NCBI RefSeq assembly: GCF_029213205.1
Contig: NZ_JARGNH010000001.1
Location: 124,001-188,000 of the forward strand
Length of the DNA: 64,000 nt
From: Pseudooceanicola sp.
GTDB lineage: Bacteria > Pseudomonadota > Alphaproteobacteria > Rhodobacterales > Rhodobacteraceae
Direction: 5' to 3'
Made by a program: the position numbers and the translations under genes. Below, in pieces: positions 48,521 through 55,333 of this stretch. Below the pieces are notes generated by a model. It had not been told where the DNA came from. It was given only the letters and a program-made list of their open reading frames with translations, and ran no database searches. Every line of letters starts with the position of its first letter. Within the stretch, counting starts at the first letter, position 1.

Positions 48521-48835
48521 ATGATCATCTATGGCATCAAGACCTGCGATACTTGCCGAAAGGCACTGAAATCGCTGCAAAACGCGCGGTTGCACGACAT
48601 CCGCGCCGAGGGCTTTCCGCCGGGTCTGCTGGAGCGGGCCGAGGCGGCATTCGGCCAGGATTTGCTGAACACCCGCTCGACCACCTGGCGCGGATTGGGC
48701 ACCTCCGAACGGGCGCGGCCGCTGCGTGACTTGATCCTCGCGCATCCGACTTTGATGAAACGCCCCCTTATCGAAACCCAAGGCAGGCTCTATCTGGGAT
48801 GGGGCGCGGCGGTGCAAAAGGCGCTGCTGCCCTAG
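48521..48835 (+). CDS. ArsC/Spx-family thioredoxin-fold protein
   Basis: This 104-residue ArsC-fold protein has the CXXC motif in IYGIKTCDTCRKALKSL and the family C-terminal RPLIETQGRLYLGWG. The arginine pattern of a true arsenate reductase is not clear. It belongs with the YffB/Spx-like proteins of unknown role. The ATG at 48521 follows TGAGGG. Confidence 0.85.
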   Translation: MIIYGIKTCDTCRKALKSLQNARLHDIRAEGFPPGLLERAEAAFGQDLLNTRSTTWRGLGTSERARPLRDLILAHPTLMKRPLIETQGRLYLGWGAAVQKALLP

Positions 48836-48864
48836 AAGCTGGCGGCGGAAAGGAACACAGAGAG

Positions 48865-49233
48865 ATGCGCAATGCGGCATTGATATTGGGGCTGATCGGC
48901 GGGCTTCTGGGGCTGGTCGTCGGCATGGCCAGCTATGGCTATACCGAGGCGATTGACCGCTTTGGCGAGGTCGAGGGGCTGTTCGAACAGGTCGGCAATG
49001 TCGATCTGATCCGCGCCGCGTCGTTCCTGTCGCCGCTGCTGGCGATTGCCGGGGCCGGGATGGCCAAGGTGCGCGCGCTCTGGGGCGGGCTGTTGCTGAT
49101 CGCCTCGGCGGCGGGGATGTATGTCGGCTTCGGGGTCAATGTCTTTACCCTGTTCCCGATGGGATTCTGTGCGGTGGCCGGGCTTATGGCACTGGCCGCC
49201 GGGCGTCCGGATGAACCAAAGGCGCATTTCTGA
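48865..49233 (+). CDS. small membrane protein of unknown function
   Basis: This 122-residue protein has four hydrophobic segments (ILGLIGGLLGLVVGMASYG at the start, AASFLSPLLAIAGAGMA, LWGGLLLIASAAGMYVG and PMGFCAVAGLMALAAG). GGAAAGGAACAC lies before the ATG at 48865. The 3' end overlaps the convergent bufD gene by 50 bases. No family assigned with confidence (DUF4064-like). Confidence 0.75.
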   Translation: MRNAALILGLIGGLLGLVVGMASYGYTEAIDRFGEVEGLFEQVGNVDLIRAASFLSPLLAIAGAGMAKVRALWGGLLLIASAAGMYVGFGVNVFTLFPMGFCAVAGLMALAAGRPDEPKAHF

Positions 49234-49756
49234 ATATTGCCTGATCCAGGGCCAGCCAGCCGCCGCCCTTGATCACCAGAACGATCAGCAAGTAAATCCA
49301 CAAGGCGCGTTGATCGAGGATGGCGCTGTCCGCCGCCGGGTCGAACCAGGCACCAAAGGTTTCGAGATGAGCGAGGCCGCCATGGCCAAAGAGGTCGGTG
49401 AGGCTCTGCACGGTGATGAAACCGATCATCCCCAGCGCTGCAAGCCGGGTGAACAGGCCCAGAACCACCGCAAGGGGCAGCAGGAATTCGGCCCAGGTGC
49501 CCGCCACCACCACCGCCCAGTGAAACAGCCCAAGCTGGTCGGTGTCATAGCCGACCGCCTCCAGCTGCCGCGGGAAGATCTGCGCATAGGCACCGAGCGA
49601 GGGTTTGAAGATGCCCAGCAGCCCATCGCCGAGCTTGGTCAGGCCGGAGGCCCAGAAGTAGCGCAGCAGCACGGCGGCAAAGACAAAGCGAGCCAGGGTC
49701 GCCAGCAGCGGCTCGACCCGGGTCAGGGCTGCGGCGAATTGGTTGAAATGTCTCAT
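49184..49756 (-). CDS. bufD: DoxX-family membrane protein of the bufferin operon
   Basis: This 190-residue inner-membrane protein has four hydrophobic helices and the DoxX pattern (LLRYFWASGLTKLGDG, WAEFLLPLAVVLGLFTRLAA, GGGWLALDQAI). In bufferin operons the DoxX gene is called bufD and is thought to support redox or export of the peptide product; this is known of the family and not shown here. The ATG at 49756 overlaps the bufC stop (49753). Confidence 0.87.
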   Translation of the reverse strand: MRHFNQFAAALTRVEPLLATLARFVFAAVLLRYFWASGLTKLGDGLLGIFKPSLGAYAQIFPRQLEAVGYDTDQLGLFHWAVVVAGTWAEFLLPLAVVLGLFTRLAALGMIGFITVQSLTDLFGHGGLAHLETFGAWFDPAADSAILDQRALWIYLLIVLVIKGGGWLALDQAIFRNAPLVHPDARRPVP

Positions 49757-50502
49757 GTCTGGCTCTCCATGCCGGTGATGCATTGGTCCTGGATCAACAA
49801 CGCCAGCAGCGCCGACAGATCGAATTCGGGTGTGTCCGTGCTGGCCGCTTCAAAGGCGTCCCCCAGCGTCGCGCCGTTGAGGATCGCGGTGATGAACACG
49901 GCGCCGCCCGGCGGCAACACCCATGGAACCGGATCGAACTCTGGCCGGGTGATCAGCACCGCCTCGGCGCGGGGGGCGGGCGCCGGCCCATCGTCGTGAT
50001 TGAAGCGCCAGATCGCATGCAGCGGCCAGTCCGAGCGGATCAGCCGCAGTGCCGGGGCCAGCGTTAGCCGCGCGACGCTGAGATCGCCGGACATCAGGGT
50101 TTGCAGGGCCTCGGGCGCCAGGGCCTGCGCATCGGCGGCGTGATAGGACAGTCGCATCGCGTAATCGAGCCGCGCCACATCGGCCAGATAGCCCAGATGC
50201 TGCACCGGCGCGAAGCCGGCGAGGAAATCGGCAAAGCCGCTGCCATAGGTCATCATCAGCGGGCTCTGCGGCGGGGTGGCACGCAGGAACAGCGCGGCGA
50301 TGCCACGGAAATTCTGTTCGCCCAGCAGCTTGGCGACGGTGGGAAACCCGGTCTCCAGCGCCTCGCCCAGCGAGACCGCGACATTGTTGCGATAGACCGC
50401 AAAGCGACGTCCGGCGGCACCGCCGCGCCCGTCTTGCAGATTTGGCGGGGCAGGGCGGTCGGGATCGAGCAGCGCCATGCGAAAGTCGGTCTGGGTGCTC
50501 AT
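49753..50502 (-). CDS. bufC: BufC-type DUF2063 partner protein
   Basis: This 249-residue protein has the DUF2063 N-terminal domain ([20 protein letters not shown] then [20 protein letters not shown]) and a C-terminal partner domain. In MNIO-type RiPP pathways the protein partners the DUF692 enzyme and recruits the precursor. It overlaps bufB by four bases upstream and bufD by four bases downstream, so all three are translated together. Confidence 0.88.
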
Positions 50503-51362
50503 GCTGGCACCTTAGTCAACGGGTCCAGCGCGCGGGCGGCGCGGCTGGCCTCGGCCGCCAGCACCGGCCAGTCCGGCACGTCATTGTCCCATTCAACCAG
50601 AACCGGGCGTGGGCCGCTCAGCGCAAGAGTTTCGCCCAGCAGCGTCCAGACCGGGTCGGCGATTTCGGCGCCGTGGCTGTCGATCAACAATGGACGGCCC
50701 TGATCGTCGTGATCCTCGTCATGGCCGCCGAGGTGGATTTCACCGACCTGATCGAGCGGGAAATCGGCGATATAGGCGCGGGCGTCGAGGCCCAGGTTGG
50801 TCGCCGACACGAACACGTTGTTCACATCCAGTAGCAGTCCACAGCCGGTGCGCCGCGCCACTTCACGCAGGAAATCGGTTTCCGACCAGTGGCTTTCGGC
50901 AAAGGCCAGATAGCTTGACGGGTTTTCCAGCAGGATCCGGCGGCCCAGAACCGCCTGCAGCTCATCAACATGATCGGCAACCCGGGTCAGGGTGGCGTCC
51001 GTATAGGGCAGCGGCAGCAAGTCGTTGAGAAAGGCGCTGTCATGGGTGGACCAGGCCAGATGTTCGGAAAAACTCGCCGGGTTCAGCCAATCGCAGAGGT
51101 GTTTCAGCCGTGCCAGATGATCGGCGTCAAGCCGCCCGTCGCCGCCAATCGACAACCCGACCCCATGCACCGAGATCGGAAAGCGCTCGGCCAGGTGACG
51201 CAGCTGCGCCAACGGGCGGCCACCGTCGCCCATGTAGTTTTCGGCGTGGATTTCCAGCCAGCCAACCGGGGCGGGGTCAGCGATGATCGACGCATAATGC
51301 TGCGGCTTGTATCCGACACCCGGCAGGGCGGGCAGATCGTTTGGAAACGCGCGGTCGAGCAT
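50499..51362 (-). CDS. bufB: BufB-type MNIO (DUF692) peptide-modifying oxidase
   Basis: This 287-residue TIM-barrel multinuclear iron oxidase has the expected metal ligands: [58 protein letters not shown] and [11 protein letters not shown]. Family enzymes turn cysteines of a precursor peptide into thiooxazole or related groups. GGGGAGG precedes the ATG at 51362. The downstream gene is bufC and the upstream gene is the precursor. Confidence 0.93.
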
Positions 51363-51435
51363 GGCAGAACCTCCCCAGAAAGAAATGCAGTGTGAAATTC
51401 GGTGCGCCCCCGAGGGGAGACGCACCGAAATGACC

Positions 51436-51741
51436 TTAGCCGTTCATCGGCAGGTCGCGCTCAAGCGGTTCGAGCGATCCCATGCGGGCTTCGCCATTTT
51501 CCATCGCGGGCAGCATCATCGTGGTGCAGGTGCCGGCATCGACCAGGGTCCAGGCGTTGCCCTGGTAATTGACCTTGGAGGTGCCGGCGCAGGTGGTGCC
51601 GGGACCGGCGGCGCAATCGTTCTCGCCCGCCATCGAGACACCATAGCATTTTTCCTTCTCGGCAGCAGCAGCGGTGTGCGGCATCGAGATCAGCGCGGTG
51701 GCGAATGCGGTGGCGATCAGGGCCTTGTTGGTGGGTTTCAT
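51436..51741 (-). CDS. bufA: bufferin precursor peptide (DUF2282)
   Basis: This 101-residue precursor has a Sec signal ([20 protein letters not shown]) and a core with four cysteines: [28 protein letters not shown] and DAGTCTTM. This matches BufA1-type peptides, which bind copper after cysteine modification. AACCGGAGGAAC lies before the ATG at 51741. It is the first gene of bufABCD and is read from an ECF-like promoter shared in type with the divergent sigma gene. Confidence 0.92.
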
Positions 51742-51794
51742 AAAAAAAGTTCCTCCGGTTGGATCGGCGCCGTCGTGGCGTCCGTGCTAACCAC

Positions 51795-51820
51795 TTCGCG
51801 GCAACCGGTGGAAATGTTAC
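51795..51820 (-). promoter_or_regulatory. ECF-type promoter of bufABCD
   Basis: On the minus strand GTAACA (start at 51820) is followed after 16 bases by CGAA (51795-51798), about 54 bases before the bufA start codon. The form GTAAC-n-CGAA is what I recall for Caulobacter SigF promoters. A matching motif faces the sigma gene. Confidence 0.65.
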
Positions 51821-51867
51821 GCTGCTCACAAACAGGTGATGTATTTGCACATTTCGGATTGAAGACT

Positions 51868-51892
51868 GTAACGTTTGCGCGGCAAGCGCGAA
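51868..51892 (+). promoter_or_regulatory. ECF-type promoter of the sigma factor gene
   Basis: GTAACG (51868-51873) is followed after 15 bases by CGAA (51889-51892), 14 bases before the sigma start codon. The motif repeats that upstream of bufA, which suggests that the sigma factor activates its own gene and the buf operon. Confidence 0.6.
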
Positions 51893-51906
51893 TGGAGAGA
51901 GGCAAT

Positions 51907-52461
51907 ATGGATCGCAACGACCGCTGGGGCGATCTCCTGCGCCGGGCCAACCGGGGCGAGGGGGCAGCCTATGCGCTATTCCTGACCGAATGCGCGCCGG
52001 TGATCCGCAATGTCGTGCGTGGCCGCAGAGGCGACAGCGGCGCGGATGATATCGAAGATATCGTGCAAGAGGTCCTGCTTGCGGTGCATGCCAAGCGTCA
52101 CACCTGGCGCGAGGCGGATCCGGTGACGCCATGGCTCTACGCCATTGCCCGCTACAAGACCGCCGATGCCGGGCGCAAGCGGCGGACAGGCGGGACGCAG
52201 GTGCCGCTGGACGATGTCGCCGAGGTGCTGCCGGACGAGGCATCGGGCGAGATCATGGCGGTGCGCGATCTGGGCGTGATGCTGGACCGGATCGACGAAA
52301 GATCGGCCGGTATTGTCCGCGCCGTCGGCATTGCAGGCGAAAGCGCCGGAGAAGTCGGCGCCCGCCTGGGAATGAGTGAAGGGGCGGTGCGCGTGGCCTA
52401 TCACCGTGCCATGACCCGGCTAAAGGATCTGGCCGAAGCGAAAGACGAGACCCGCGAATGA
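51907..52461 (+). CDS. sigF: ECF sigma factor, SigF-like
   Basis: This 184-residue sigma factor has region 2 with DIEDIVQEVLLAVHAKRHTW and TPWLYAIARYKTADAGRK, and region 4 with AGESAGEVGARLGMSEGAVR then VAYHRAMTRLKDL. It resembles SigF of Caulobacter, which answers copper or oxidative stress with NrsF as anti-sigma. It overlaps the anti-sigma gene by four bases and is divergent from bufA. Confidence 0.88.
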   Translation: MDRNDRWGDLLRRANRGEGAAYALFLTECAPVIRNVVRGRRGDSGADDIEDIVQEVLLAVHAKRHTWREADPVTPWLYAIARYKTADAGRKRRTGGTQVPLDDVAEVLPDEASGEIMAVRDLGVMLDRIDERSAGIVRAVGIAGESAGEVGARLGMSEGAVRVAYHRAMTRLKDLAEAKDETRE

Positions 52462-53099
52462 AGACCGAAGACCTGATAAATGCGCTGGCGGCAGAGGCCG
52501 CCCCGGCCCCCGCTGCCTCGGTTGAGACGCGGGTGGGGCTGGCTTTGCCACTGGCAGTACTGGTGTCGGTGGTGCTGTATTTCCTCTTTCTCGGCCCGCG
52601 CCCGGATCTGGCCGAGCGCATCATTGATCCGGTGGTGGCGGCAAAAACGCTCCTGCCGCTGGGTCTTGCGATGCTGGCATTGGTGCTGGCGCTGCGCTCG
52701 GCACGGCCTGCGGTGCCGCTGGGCCTGCCCGCCCGGGTGGTCTGGCTGGTGCCGGCAATCGCTCTTGGGCTGTTCGTCTGGGCCTTTGTCACGACGGCGC
52801 CGGACAGCCGGTTCATGCTCTGGCAGGGCAAATCGATCCCGGTCTGCCTGCCGATGATCGTGATTCTGTCGCTGCCGCTGACGGCGGGCATGCTGGCGGC
52901 GATGCGGCGCGGCGCATCCGTGCGCCCCGGGTTCAGTGGCGCGCTGGCCGGGCTGGCGGCTGCGGGCCTCGCGACAACGATCTATTCAACCTTCTGCAAC
53001 GAAGATTCCCCGCTGTTCTATGCCACCTGGTATTCGCTGGGGATCCTCCTGGCGACCCTGATCGGCGCGCTGGCCGGATCGCGGCTGCTGCGCTGGTGA
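52458..53099 (+). CDS. nrsF: NrsF-like anti-sigma factor (DUF1109)
   Basis: This 213-residue membrane protein has six hydrophobic segments and the DUF1109 pattern. Cysteines lie in IPVCLPMIVIL and STFCNEDSPLFYATWY, the two positions known to matter for metal or oxidant sensing in NrsF. It starts at an ATGA overlap with the sigma gene. It would hold the sigma factor at the membrane until stress. Confidence 0.87.
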   Translation: MKTEDLINALAAEAAPAPAASVETRVGLALPLAVLVSVVLYFLFLGPRPDLAERIIDPVVAAKTLLPLGLAMLALVLALRSARPAVPLGLPARVVWLVPAIALGLFVWAFVTTAPDSRFMLWQGKSIPVCLPMIVILSLPLTAGMLAAMRRGASVRPGFSGALAGLAAAGLATTIYSTFCNEDSPLFYATWYSLGILLATLIGALAGSRLLRW

Positions 53100-53104
53100 G
53101 GGCG

Positions 53105-53134
53105 GCAAGGCGGGTGTGGCCCGCCTTGCGTTTT
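53105..53134. terminator. intrinsic terminator between nrsF and thrS
   Basis: GCAAGGCGGG and CCCGCCTTGC form a perfect 10-base-pair stem around TGTGG, followed by GTTTTG. It lies five bases after the nrsF stop and nine before the convergent thrS stop and could serve both genes. Confidence 0.82.
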
Positions 53135-53142
53135 GTTGATCC

Positions 53143-55092
53143 TCAGGCGCTCATATCGGGCGGCAGTGCCTCGTCCCGCAACCGCGCGATGATCTCGTCG
53201 AGCGTCGCCATCGCGGTCTGTTTCTCGCCCAGCCTGCGCACCGAAACGCTGCGATCCTCGACCTCGCGCTGACCGCAGGCCAGGATATAAGGCACCTTGG
53301 CGACCGAATGTTCGCGGACCTTGTAGTTGATCTTTTCGTTGCGCAGATCGGCCTCGGCGCGGATGCCGGCGGCTTTCAGCGCCGCAACCACCTCAAGGCA
53401 ATACTCATCCGCATCCGACACGATCGTGGCCACCACGACCTGGCGTGGCGCCAGCCACAGTGGCAGGTGACCGGCAGAGTTTTCGATCAGGATGCCGATG
53501 AAGCGCTCAAACGATCCCAGCACCGCGCGGTGCAGCATGAAGGGACGGTGCTTTTCGCCATCTGGGCCGATGTAATCCGCATCCAGCCGCTCAGGCAGGT
53601 TCGGATCAAGCTGCAGCGTGCCGCATTGCCAATCCCGGCCAATCGCATCGGTCAGCACGAATTCCAGCTTGGGCGCGTAAAAGGCGCCTTCGCCCTCAAA
53701 GATCTCATAGTCATATTCGGCGGCCTTGCAGGCATTGGCCAGCGCCGCCTCCATCCGGTCCCAGCTTTCTTCGGTGCCGACCCGCTTTTCGGGGCGGGTG
53801 GAGAGTTTCACCCGCCATTTGTCAAACCCGAGGTCGGAATAGATCCGGGCCAGGAATTCGATGAATTTCTTTGATTCACCCTCGATCTGGTCATCGGTGC
53901 AGAAGATATGCGCGTCATCCTGGGTAAAGCCGCGCACCCGCATGATACCGTGCAGCGCGCCCGAGGGTTCGTAACGGTTGCACGAGCCGAATTCGGCCAT
54001 GCGGATCGGCAGATCGCGATAGGATTTCAGACCGTGGTTGAAGATCTGGACATGGCAGGGGCAATTCATCGGTTTCAGCGCGTTAATGGTCTTTTCGCGC
54101 GCATGCTCCTCGTCGACTTCGACGATGAACATGTTTTCCTGATAATTGTCCCAATGGCCTGAATCCTCCCACAATTTGCGGGAGACGACCTGCGGCGTGT
54201 TCACCTCGACATAGCCATCGGCCTGTTGCCGGCGGCGCATGTAATCCTGCAACTGGGAGTAGATGGTCCAGCCATTCGGGTGCCAGAAAATCTGACCCGG
54301 CGCCTCTTCCTGCATATGGAACAGGTCCATCTCGCGGCCCAGCTTGCGGTGGTCGCGCTTGGCGGCCTCCTCCAGCATCGTCATATGCGCCTTGAGGTCG
54401 TTGCGGTTCTTGAACGCCACGCCATAGATGCGTTGCAGCATCGGCCGGGTGTTGTCGCCCAGCCAATAGGCCCCGGCGACATGGGTCAGCTTGAAGGCAT
54501 CGGCAGGCAATTGGCCCGTCGATTGCAGATGCGGGCCCCGGCACAGATCCTGCCAGTCGCCGTGCCAATACATCCGAATGTCCTGGCCTTCGGGGATCCG
54601 CGCCAGCAATTCGACCTTATAGGGCTCGTCGCTGTCCTGGTAATGTTTCAGCGCCCGGGCGCGATCCCAGACTTCGGTCCGGACCGGATCGCGGGCATTG
54701 ATGAATTCCCGCATCTTGGCCTCGATGGCGCCGAGGTCTTCGGGGGTAAATGGCTCTTCGCGGTCGAAATCATAGAACCAGCCGAAATCGCGGATCGGGC
54801 CGATGGTGACCTTGACGTCCGGCCAGATCGCCTGAACCGCGCGGGCCATGACATGGGCCAGATCGTGGCGGATCAGTTCCAGCGCCGCCGCGTCATCCTG
54901 CATCGTGTTGATGGCGATGCTGGCGTCCGCCTCGATCGGCCATTGCAGATCGTAATGGGCACCGTTCACCGTGGCGCTGATCGCCTTTTTGGCCAGCGAC
55001 GGGGCGATGCCCGCGGCCACTTCGGCCGGGGTGATTCCGGCGGGGACGGATTTGGAATTGCCATCGGGGAAGGTGAGGGTGATCTGGGACAT
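53143..55092 (-). CDS. thrS: threonyl-tRNA synthetase
   Basis: This class II synthetase attaches threonine to tRNA(Thr). Its 649 residues are the usual bacterial length: TGS domain at the start ([18 protein letters not shown]), an editing domain with [12 protein letters not shown] near residue 75, and a catalytic domain with the zinc cysteine in [11 protein letters not shown] and [22 protein letters not shown]-terminal anticodon domain is present. AGGAGGACAG precedes the ATG at 55092. Confidence 0.98.
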
Positions 55093-55333
55093 ATCTGTCC
55101 TCCTCGTCGGTTTGGCGCCCACGGAACGCCCGGTTGCGGGTTATATCGTCCGGTTTCATTGATCCGCGCGGCTGACGGTGTCAAGCGTGGCGCGCCGGGC
55201 TGCGGCCAATTGCGCGCGAGCGTGACCATAGAACGCAGGTGGCTATCGGCGGTGCCCTGCCAGCGCGCGCAACGCAGGGCTGACAATCCCGGCGGGCAAT
55301 GGCAGATATTGTCGGCAGCACAGGAGGTCGCAA

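Follow-up and report, generated by a model that had tools for sequence, protein, structure and literature searches.

A sigma-F-type bufferin operon whose promoter dyad and bufA stem-loop point to an added, family-specific layer of control

Introduction

Bufferins, peptides that buffer copper, form a large class described only recently and, to our knowledge, little is known of how their genes are switched on outside Caulobacter. Here we describe a bufferin locus from a 64,000-nucleotide (nt) stretch of Pseudooceanicola sp. DNA, which we call the window. Judged by its sequence, the locus belongs to the Caulobacter sigma-F type of Buf1 bufferin operon and lies on the chromosome, in a host from the Rhodobacter/Roseobacter group. 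At positions 49184-53099 the buf genes occupy the minus strand, and sigF-nrsF, for an extracytoplasmic function (ECF) sigma factor and its anti-sigma factor, diverges from them on the plus strand; all of the genes are intact. Comparison with relatives points to two features beyond the published sigma-F design: a dyad at the buf promoter, predicted to be the site of a dimeric regulator, and a stem-loop between bufA and bufB. With a probability of about 0.66, we favor a joint model in which a Caulobacter-type SigF-NrsF unit is combined with a dimeric regulator at the buf dyad and with a stem-loop that favors bufA over the enzyme. The addition to the known system would be a layer of control specific to the host's family. 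The dyad offers a concrete handle on the missing regulator of bufferin operons, and the stem-loop suggests how a stoichiometric chelator and a catalytic enzyme come from one operon.

In the joint model, periplasmic metal stress would act on NrsF via its two conserved cysteines, NrsF would thereby free SigF, and SigF would start both divergent transcripts. BufB with BufC would oxidize the BufA cysteines, the chemistry being that published for the family, and the exported BufA product would hold copper. A dimeric regulator would bind the dyad near -44 on the buf promoter alone and help or gate SigF there; a like dyad would serve sigma-70-like promoters in many relatives that lack sigF. The stem-loop behind bufA would protect the bufA message or partly end it, yielding much precursor and little enzyme. 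By analogy with Caulobacter, metal control of the locus is likely; oxidant control is less likely.

The GTAAC promoters follow sigF

An earlier note, made from the window's letters alone, had reported a GTAAC...CGAA motif in each direction of the bufA-sigF intergenic region, and both motifs are where it placed them, with spacers of 16 on the minus strand and 15 on the plus strand (Table 1). By count the pair is unremarkable and on its own is weak evidence: a shuffled window should hold GTAAC-N14-20-CGAA 0.77 times on average, and two or more copies turned up in 19 of 100 shuffles. Position and conservation make the pair convincing. With a wider pattern, GTAAC-N16-17-CG[AT][AC], the motif was found on the buf side in all 25 of 25 distinct divergent loci (the window included), on the sigF side in 19 and on both sides in 19, while dinucleotide shuffles of the same intergenic regions matched at 0.40% on the buf side, at 0.32% on the sigF side and on both in 0 of 5000. 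Among the divergent loci listed, 15- and 16-nt spacers are equally frequent on the sigF side and 16 predominates on the buf side, so the unequal spacing of the window's two motifs is ordinary; two spacings are also reported to be tolerated by EcfF of Bradyrhizobium (PMC3420878). In Caulobacter crescentus, GTAACC-N16-CGAA promoters stand before both the buf operon and sigF-nrsF (PMC3511200), and the window has this promoter before sigF and bufA with A or G at position 6 and N16 or N15.

To see the motif against the presence of sigF, a family sample (genomes of the host's family, Rhodobacteraceae) and a class sample (genomes of its class, Alphaproteobacteria) were used. Of 394 family genomes, 279 have a DUF2282 gene; NrsF genes are rarer, with 18 of 120 family genomes (56 of 289 class genomes), so many bufferin operons must run without sigma-F. 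The comparison covered 90 family loci with bufA and bufB, 22 with sigF inside the stretch compared and 68 without; the bufA loci came from the better-scoring matches listed. Left out were L031 (the same locus as L035), L133 (whose contig ends ahead of bufB), L177 and L178 (beyond the analyzed range, both with stems of at least 8 base pairs, bp), and L032, L033, L038, L046-L048 and L050, in which the window proteins gave no bufA-bufB pair. Of the 22 loci with sigF-nrsF, 21 carry the GTAAC motif upstream of bufA, versus 3 of the 68 without (Fisher p 2.5e-16). A BufB tree calls for 10 changes of the sigF label, 8 of them forced by well-supported branches (the bootstrap had not settled), and in 8 independent tree pairs the motif follows sigF in 6.9 on average and goes the opposite way in none (median p 0.016). 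No other evidence argues as strongly for recognition of the motif by SigF as this tracking of sigF does. The note's proposal of one unit under SigF stands to that extent, though it lacked the dyad and the stem-loop. Its word "autoregulated" would be allowed by the sigF-side motif; autoregulation of Caulobacter sigF is weak under dichromate (PMC3511200), though copper raises sigF mRNA strongly (PMC8224329).

Three loci, L103, L105 and L152, carry the GTAAC motif though no sigF lies in the stretch compared; on the tree, the BufB closest to those of L103 and L105 comes from L040, a sigF locus. Their sigF may lie elsewhere in their genomes.

The window genome has 21 GTAAC-N15-18-CGAA sites, which were rejected as a regulon, the reversed pattern being commoner (52 + 47 versus 9 + 12 by strand). 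Beyond the window pair, 17 of the 19 sites fall within open frames of at least 120 codons, the exceptions being L004 and L083. At L004 (G000:C11:12102-12126), GTAACC-N15-CGAA lies 82 nt upstream of an open reading frame (ORF) resembling the primary sigma factor RpoD, and no 120-codon frame spans the site; it may be a chance match.

A dyad on the buf side only

Next to the buf -35 of the window lies a dyad (Table 1). The fixed pattern CAC-N5-[CT]G[CT]G[AT], with its end 3-7 nt before GTAAC, was found in 18 of 21 family promoters on the buf side, at a distance of 4-6 nt from the -35, versus 0.10% of random positions; the 21 are the 22 sigF loci minus L102, which is without an exact GTAAC. It was found in 0 of 19 sigF-side promoters of the family sigF loci. 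As the pattern came from these loci, its 18 of 21 is a descriptive figure, and the sigF side and the random positions serve as controls. The simplest reading is that the dyad is bound by a dimeric activator beside the polymerase; a repressor could also sit there. The two promoters of the window were called matched in the earlier note, and a motif is indeed present on both sides, but they are not equivalent: the dyad belongs to the buf side and, as the sigF -10 is only 15 nt from the start codon, the sigF leader must be very short.

A similar dyad recurs where sigF is lacking. Of the 68 sigF-less loci, 49 have CAC-N6-GTGA at 50-140 nt upstream of bufA (control 1.2%), and in 29 of those 49 a -10-like TANNNT follows 28-29 nt after the GTGA begins (3.2% for a random 18-nt stretch). 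An extra half-site, CGTG, lies three bases upstream of the dyad in 24 of the 68, versus 96 of 18000 random 120-nt stretches. Taking transcription to begin 6 nt past the -10, the distance mapped for EcfF (PMC3420878), would place the center of the dyad at about -44 in GTAAC-type and sigma-70-like promoters alike. The sigma-70-like promoter with a dyad is found in 29 of 68 sigF-less loci versus 0 of 22 sigF loci.

Upstream of bufA, and pointing the same way, a thrS homologue is found in 53 of the 68 sigF-less loci, with a median aligned thrS-bufA gap of 301 nt, and in 5 of the 22 sigF loci (the window included), where sigF-nrsF fills the interval. With or without intervening sigF-nrsF, thrS is the commonest upstream neighbor of bufA among the family loci, so sigF-nrsF was gained or lost there while the buf operon stayed. 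Tentatively, and with somewhat less than even confidence, we suggest that most bufferin operons of the family share one dimeric regulator at about -44 with an exchangeable polymerase partner: where sigF-nrsF lies beside bufA the promoter would be of the GTAAC type, and where it does not the promoter would in many loci be sigma-70-like with a dyad, partly doubled, often beside thrS. If true, this would be an unusual case of an ECF promoter that carries its own regulator site and is exchanged as a module.

A tandem dyad pattern (at most 1 mismatch, 30 genomes) matched buf promoters and scattered other sites. Among the latter, a near-identical match away from bufA (G592, G617, G524, G107) was set aside; in the 3 checked it falls inside a frame of at least about 200 codons, and it reads like conserved protein sequence, so it was not taken as a dyad target. 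With a longer pattern (at most 2 mismatches, 295 genomes), 4 of the 5 exact hits listed lie just upstream of listed bufA places, and the fifth is in G579, whose bufA place is not among the matches listed. The perfect TCACG-N4-CGTGA occurs at 12 sites in five genomes versus 7 for the reversed pattern (2 versus 2 in the window's own genome), and neither tblastx nor blastp of open frames gave a gene common to those 12 loci. An inverted repeat, 51745-51761/51802-51818, was dropped as a bufA leader structure: the arm 51802-51818 lies in the promoter, so the repeat cannot form in bufA mRNA.

A stem-loop behind bufA

The only gap in the window's buf operon, 73 nt between bufA and bufB, holds a stem-loop (Table 1) with the tail TTTCACAC. 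Stems of 8 bp or more, with 5 or more G-C pairs, were found at the bufA-bufB place in 84 of the 90 family loci versus 341 of 3600 random segments of equal length drawn from the same loci (9.5%), and a stem of at least 10 bp in 70 of the 90 versus 111 of the 3600. The stem sequences differ among loci. The stem begins a median 9 nt past the bufA stop and leaves about 27 nt to bufB in the median locus. Further down the operon the genes mostly overlap (median gaps -4 for bufB-bufC and -16 for bufC-doxX), and none of the bufB-bufC (7) or bufC-doxX (5) gaps of at least 15 nt has such a stem. At least 4 T in the 8 nt after the stem were found for 22 of the 84 stems versus 5.1% at random; T-runs are thus few, so most stems look like 3' stabilizers, and termination as such is unlikely for most.

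We read the stem-loop as a means to much peptide and little enzyme from one operon, in the manner of the puf hairpin of Rhodobacter, deletion of which changes the ratio of photosynthetic complexes (PMC10253847). Both stem-loops lie at the 3' end of the cistron for the abundant product, in the same bacterial group. The puf hairpin sets unequal amounts from one operon and its function has been shown; for the buf stem-loop we infer it. Outside the family the stem was found in 3 of 13 loci, and further class-level loci were mixed.

Relation to known systems

The sigma-F/NrsF design of Caulobacter was published in 2012 and 2021 (PMC3511200; PMC8224329). Its regulon is induced by dichromate and cadmium, four oxidants raised it no more than twofold, and the two NrsF cysteines, C131 and C181, matter for function (PMC3511200). 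Copper induces the regulon as well, and the sigF mutant is copper-sensitive; impaired oxidative stress resistance of a sigF mutant in stationary phase is also cited (PMC8224329). The window shares with Caulobacter the gene set and order of CC3254-CC3257 (DUF2282, DUF692, DUF2063, DoxX), sigF-nrsF alongside, GTAAC promoters for both units and the two NrsF cysteines. The Caulobacter regulon includes a second buf operon and a YedY gene; the window genome (95.6% complete), by contrast, has one MNIO match and one DUF2282 match, and its only PF00174 (sulfite oxidase/MsrP-type) match lies on a contig, C29, without a GTAAC-N15-18-CGAA site. The window has the dyad at the promoter and the stem-loop in the bufA-bufB gap, Caulobacter being known here from its publications rather than from a comparison of sequences.

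EcfF-OsrA of Bradyrhizobium pairs a group-16 ECF sigma factor with a DUF1109/NrsF anti-sigma factor and uses the promoter GTAAC(g,a)-N14-15-(c,t)CG(t,a); its transcript starts so near the gene that a downstream start codon serves (PMC3420878). The sigma group, the DUF1109/NrsF partner, the similar promoter and the start close to the gene are shared with the window. EcfF-OsrA differs in answering hydrogen peroxide (H2O2), for which OsrA C179 is needed, and in a regulon that includes methionine sulfoxide reductases; the portion of the report consulted names no bufferin operon (PMC3420878).

For Buf1 clusters a core of bufA, MNIO, DUF2063 and DoxX, together with sigma and NrsF genes, had already been reported (PMC12452194). 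Together with the published Caulobacter design, this makes the window locus a new member of a published design. That survey deals with gene content, and the words hairpin, terminator, stem-loop, operator and promoter are absent from its main text. Neither the dyad nor the stem-loop turned up in the text searched of PMC12452194, PMC13097082 and PMC12538549 or in a wider literature search, which did not take in the original bufferin paper.

Weighing the readings

Several observations weigh against the joint model. Outside the family the dyad was found in 3 of 16 distinct GTAAC promoters and is lacking in 13. It changes 16 times on the BufB tree and so has often been gained or lost, and in 8 independent pairs the sigma-70-like dyad promoter went as expected in 1.7 on average and showed no difference in 6.3 (median p 0.5). 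The window's dyad has TGTGA, not CGTGA, as its right half, and the dyad pattern on its own should turn up about once in every 3 kilobases. As for the regulator, no gene family adjoining bufA fits, the recurrent neighbor being thrS, and the searches for further dyad targets confirmed none. Six of the 90 family loci are without the stem, and T-runs follow few of the stems, which makes an ending of the message there unlikely for most. NrsF scored 107.5 bits with NCBIfam NF042994 (AntiSigF_NrsF), below the cut-off of 300, and is therefore homologous to the proteins of that model rather than an equivalog by it; SigF, too, is under its equivalog cut-off (Table 1). Finally, the metal signal is carried over from Caulobacter, while Bradyrhizobium EcfF answers H2O2.

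The observations on the dyad would be less awkward if SigF and NrsF sufficed, as in a plain Caulobacter-type unit whose promoters and genes the window matches, with the dyad an extended promoter or unbound and the stem-loop incidental. Such a unit leaves unexplained why promoters of the same sigma factor should carry the dyad on the buf side and never on the sigF side, why a like dyad recurs at sigma-70-like promoters with no sigF nearby, and why a stem-loop is kept in nearly all of the family loci despite its differing sequence; we regard it as unlikely. The signal raises a separate question, since the sigma group and the similar spacing, the need for OsrA C179 and the stationary-phase phenotype of the Caulobacter sigF mutant would suit an oxidant-responsive unit like EcfF-OsrA, in which the second NrsF cysteine would sense H2O2 or singlet oxygen. 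In the bufferin-linked system of Caulobacter, however, four oxidants gave no induction beyond twofold and copper did induce, the window's target operon is the copper-linked one, and the PF00174 match, as said, has no motif on its contig, so that we give an oxidant unit little credence. The earlier note had left the choice at "copper- or oxidant-responsive"; copper is the half that the Caulobacter induction upholds, and the oxidant half has the four failed oxidants against it, with the stationary-phase phenotype and the EcfF response to be kept in mind. There is, lastly, a poor chance that the stem-loop is a true terminator and that bufBCD are expressed mainly from a promoter of their own. The excess of T-rich tails favors this, runs of five T occurring in a few relatives, but the window's own tail is weak, stem and bufB are only about 27 nt apart in the median locus, and no sigma-70-like promoter was found in 48800-53400, other promoter types being outside that search.

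Genes of the locus

The earlier note had described bufA-bufB-bufC-bufD as back to back with a SigF-like ECF factor and an NrsF-like anti-sigma factor, a description that family matches and ORFs confirm (Table 1). BufA, BufB, BufC, DoxX and NrsF pass their Pfam cut-offs, the PF06532 match spanning the full length of NrsF, and BufB passes an NCBIfam equivalog cut-off. Buf1 clusters encode a DUF2282 precursor that bears an N-terminal signal peptide and four conserved cysteines and yields a thiooxazole-modified product able to bind copper; in the window, a DUF2282 precursor with a hydrophobic N-terminus and four cysteines shares its operon with an MNIO (PF05114) and a DUF2063 gene, as in such clusters. 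As in ECF group 16 (numbering of PMC3420878), where the anti-sigma factor has six helices, an ECF sigma gene is followed by an overlapping DUF1109/NrsF gene.

Table 1. Features of the bufferin locus and its flank, in window positions; promoter elements are predictions.
Feature	Positions	Strand	Remarks
doxX (bufD), DoxX-family membrane protein	49184..49783	-	PF07681 30.4 bits, cut-off 23.6; ORF
bufC, DUF2063 partner protein	49753..50502	-	PF09836 88.1 bits; 4-nt overlap with bufB
bufB, MNIO/DUF692 oxidase	50499..51362	-	PF05114; NF050167 MNIO_BufB 372.7 bits, cut-off 310
Stem-loop, 14-bp stem, loop of 4, weak T tail	51398..51429	-	-28 kcal/mol, z -5.77
bufA, Buf1 (DUF2282) precursor	51436..51741	-	PF10048 82 bits; hydrophobic N-terminal stretch, four cysteines
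buf promoter -10 (CGAA)	51795..51798	-	GTAACA-N16-CGAA at 51795-51820
buf promoter -35 (GTAAC)	51816..51820	-	GTAACA-N16-CGAA
Dyad TCACCTGTTTGTGA, predicted site of dimeric regulator	51826..51839	-	5 nt from buf -35
sigF promoter -35 (GTAAC)	51868..51872	+	GTAACG-N15-CGAA at 51868-51892
sigF promoter -10 (CGAA)	51889..51892	+	
sigF, ECF sigma factor (PRK12512-like)	51907..52461	+	Sigma70_r2 and r4; NF009165 175.8 bits, below cut-off 198
nrsF, anti-sigma factor with Cys130 and Cys180	52458..53099	+	PF06532 180.8 bits, cut-off 26.8; 4-nt overlap with sigF
Terminator-like stem-loop 3' of nrsF, between convergent nrsF and thrS	53105..53129	+	11 pairs, 8 G-C
thrS	53143..55122	-	ORF; name presumed, recognized from sequence alone

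Some start codons call for comment. Moving the doxX start to 49756 would make the gene overlap bufC by an ATGA, and this start is probably the true one. For bufB the start is ATG 51362, GTG 51425 opening the longest frame. An in-frame ATG upstream of sigF, at 51892, overlaps the sigF -10, and the start is likely ATG 51907 rather than ATG 51892.

The note had also held that the four-cysteine core of the precursor and the metal ligands of the DUF692 oxidase are intact. The cysteines are present in the window's BufA, and the core pattern, with Ser permitted at the third cysteine, fits 102 of 106 BufA sequences. In BufB, the metal-site words have the same His/Asp/Glu/Asn letters as 3BWW at the likely ligand places, save for SEH/SDH. 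The BufB alignment to MbnB 7DZ9 spans the later metal-site words only. In NrsF, C130 is kept in 48 of 49 aligned sequences and C180 in 40 of 49; by position in the protein they match the functional C131/C181 of Caulobacter and C129/C179 of Bradyrhizobium.

Similar C-terminal tails end 5 of 6 family BufA sequences, that of the window (51436-51480) included, and a class-level BufA, that of L057, has only the beginning of the tail, which is possibly family-specific. Two genomes, G007 (L145) and G491 (L147), have two DUF2282 matches each, and in both the chosen bufA lies more than 400 nt from bufB; at L145 the second DUF2282 match lies in between. Downstream of bufA at L206 (G214:C9), near the contig end, a long C run is followed by a long G run, possibly an assembly artifact.

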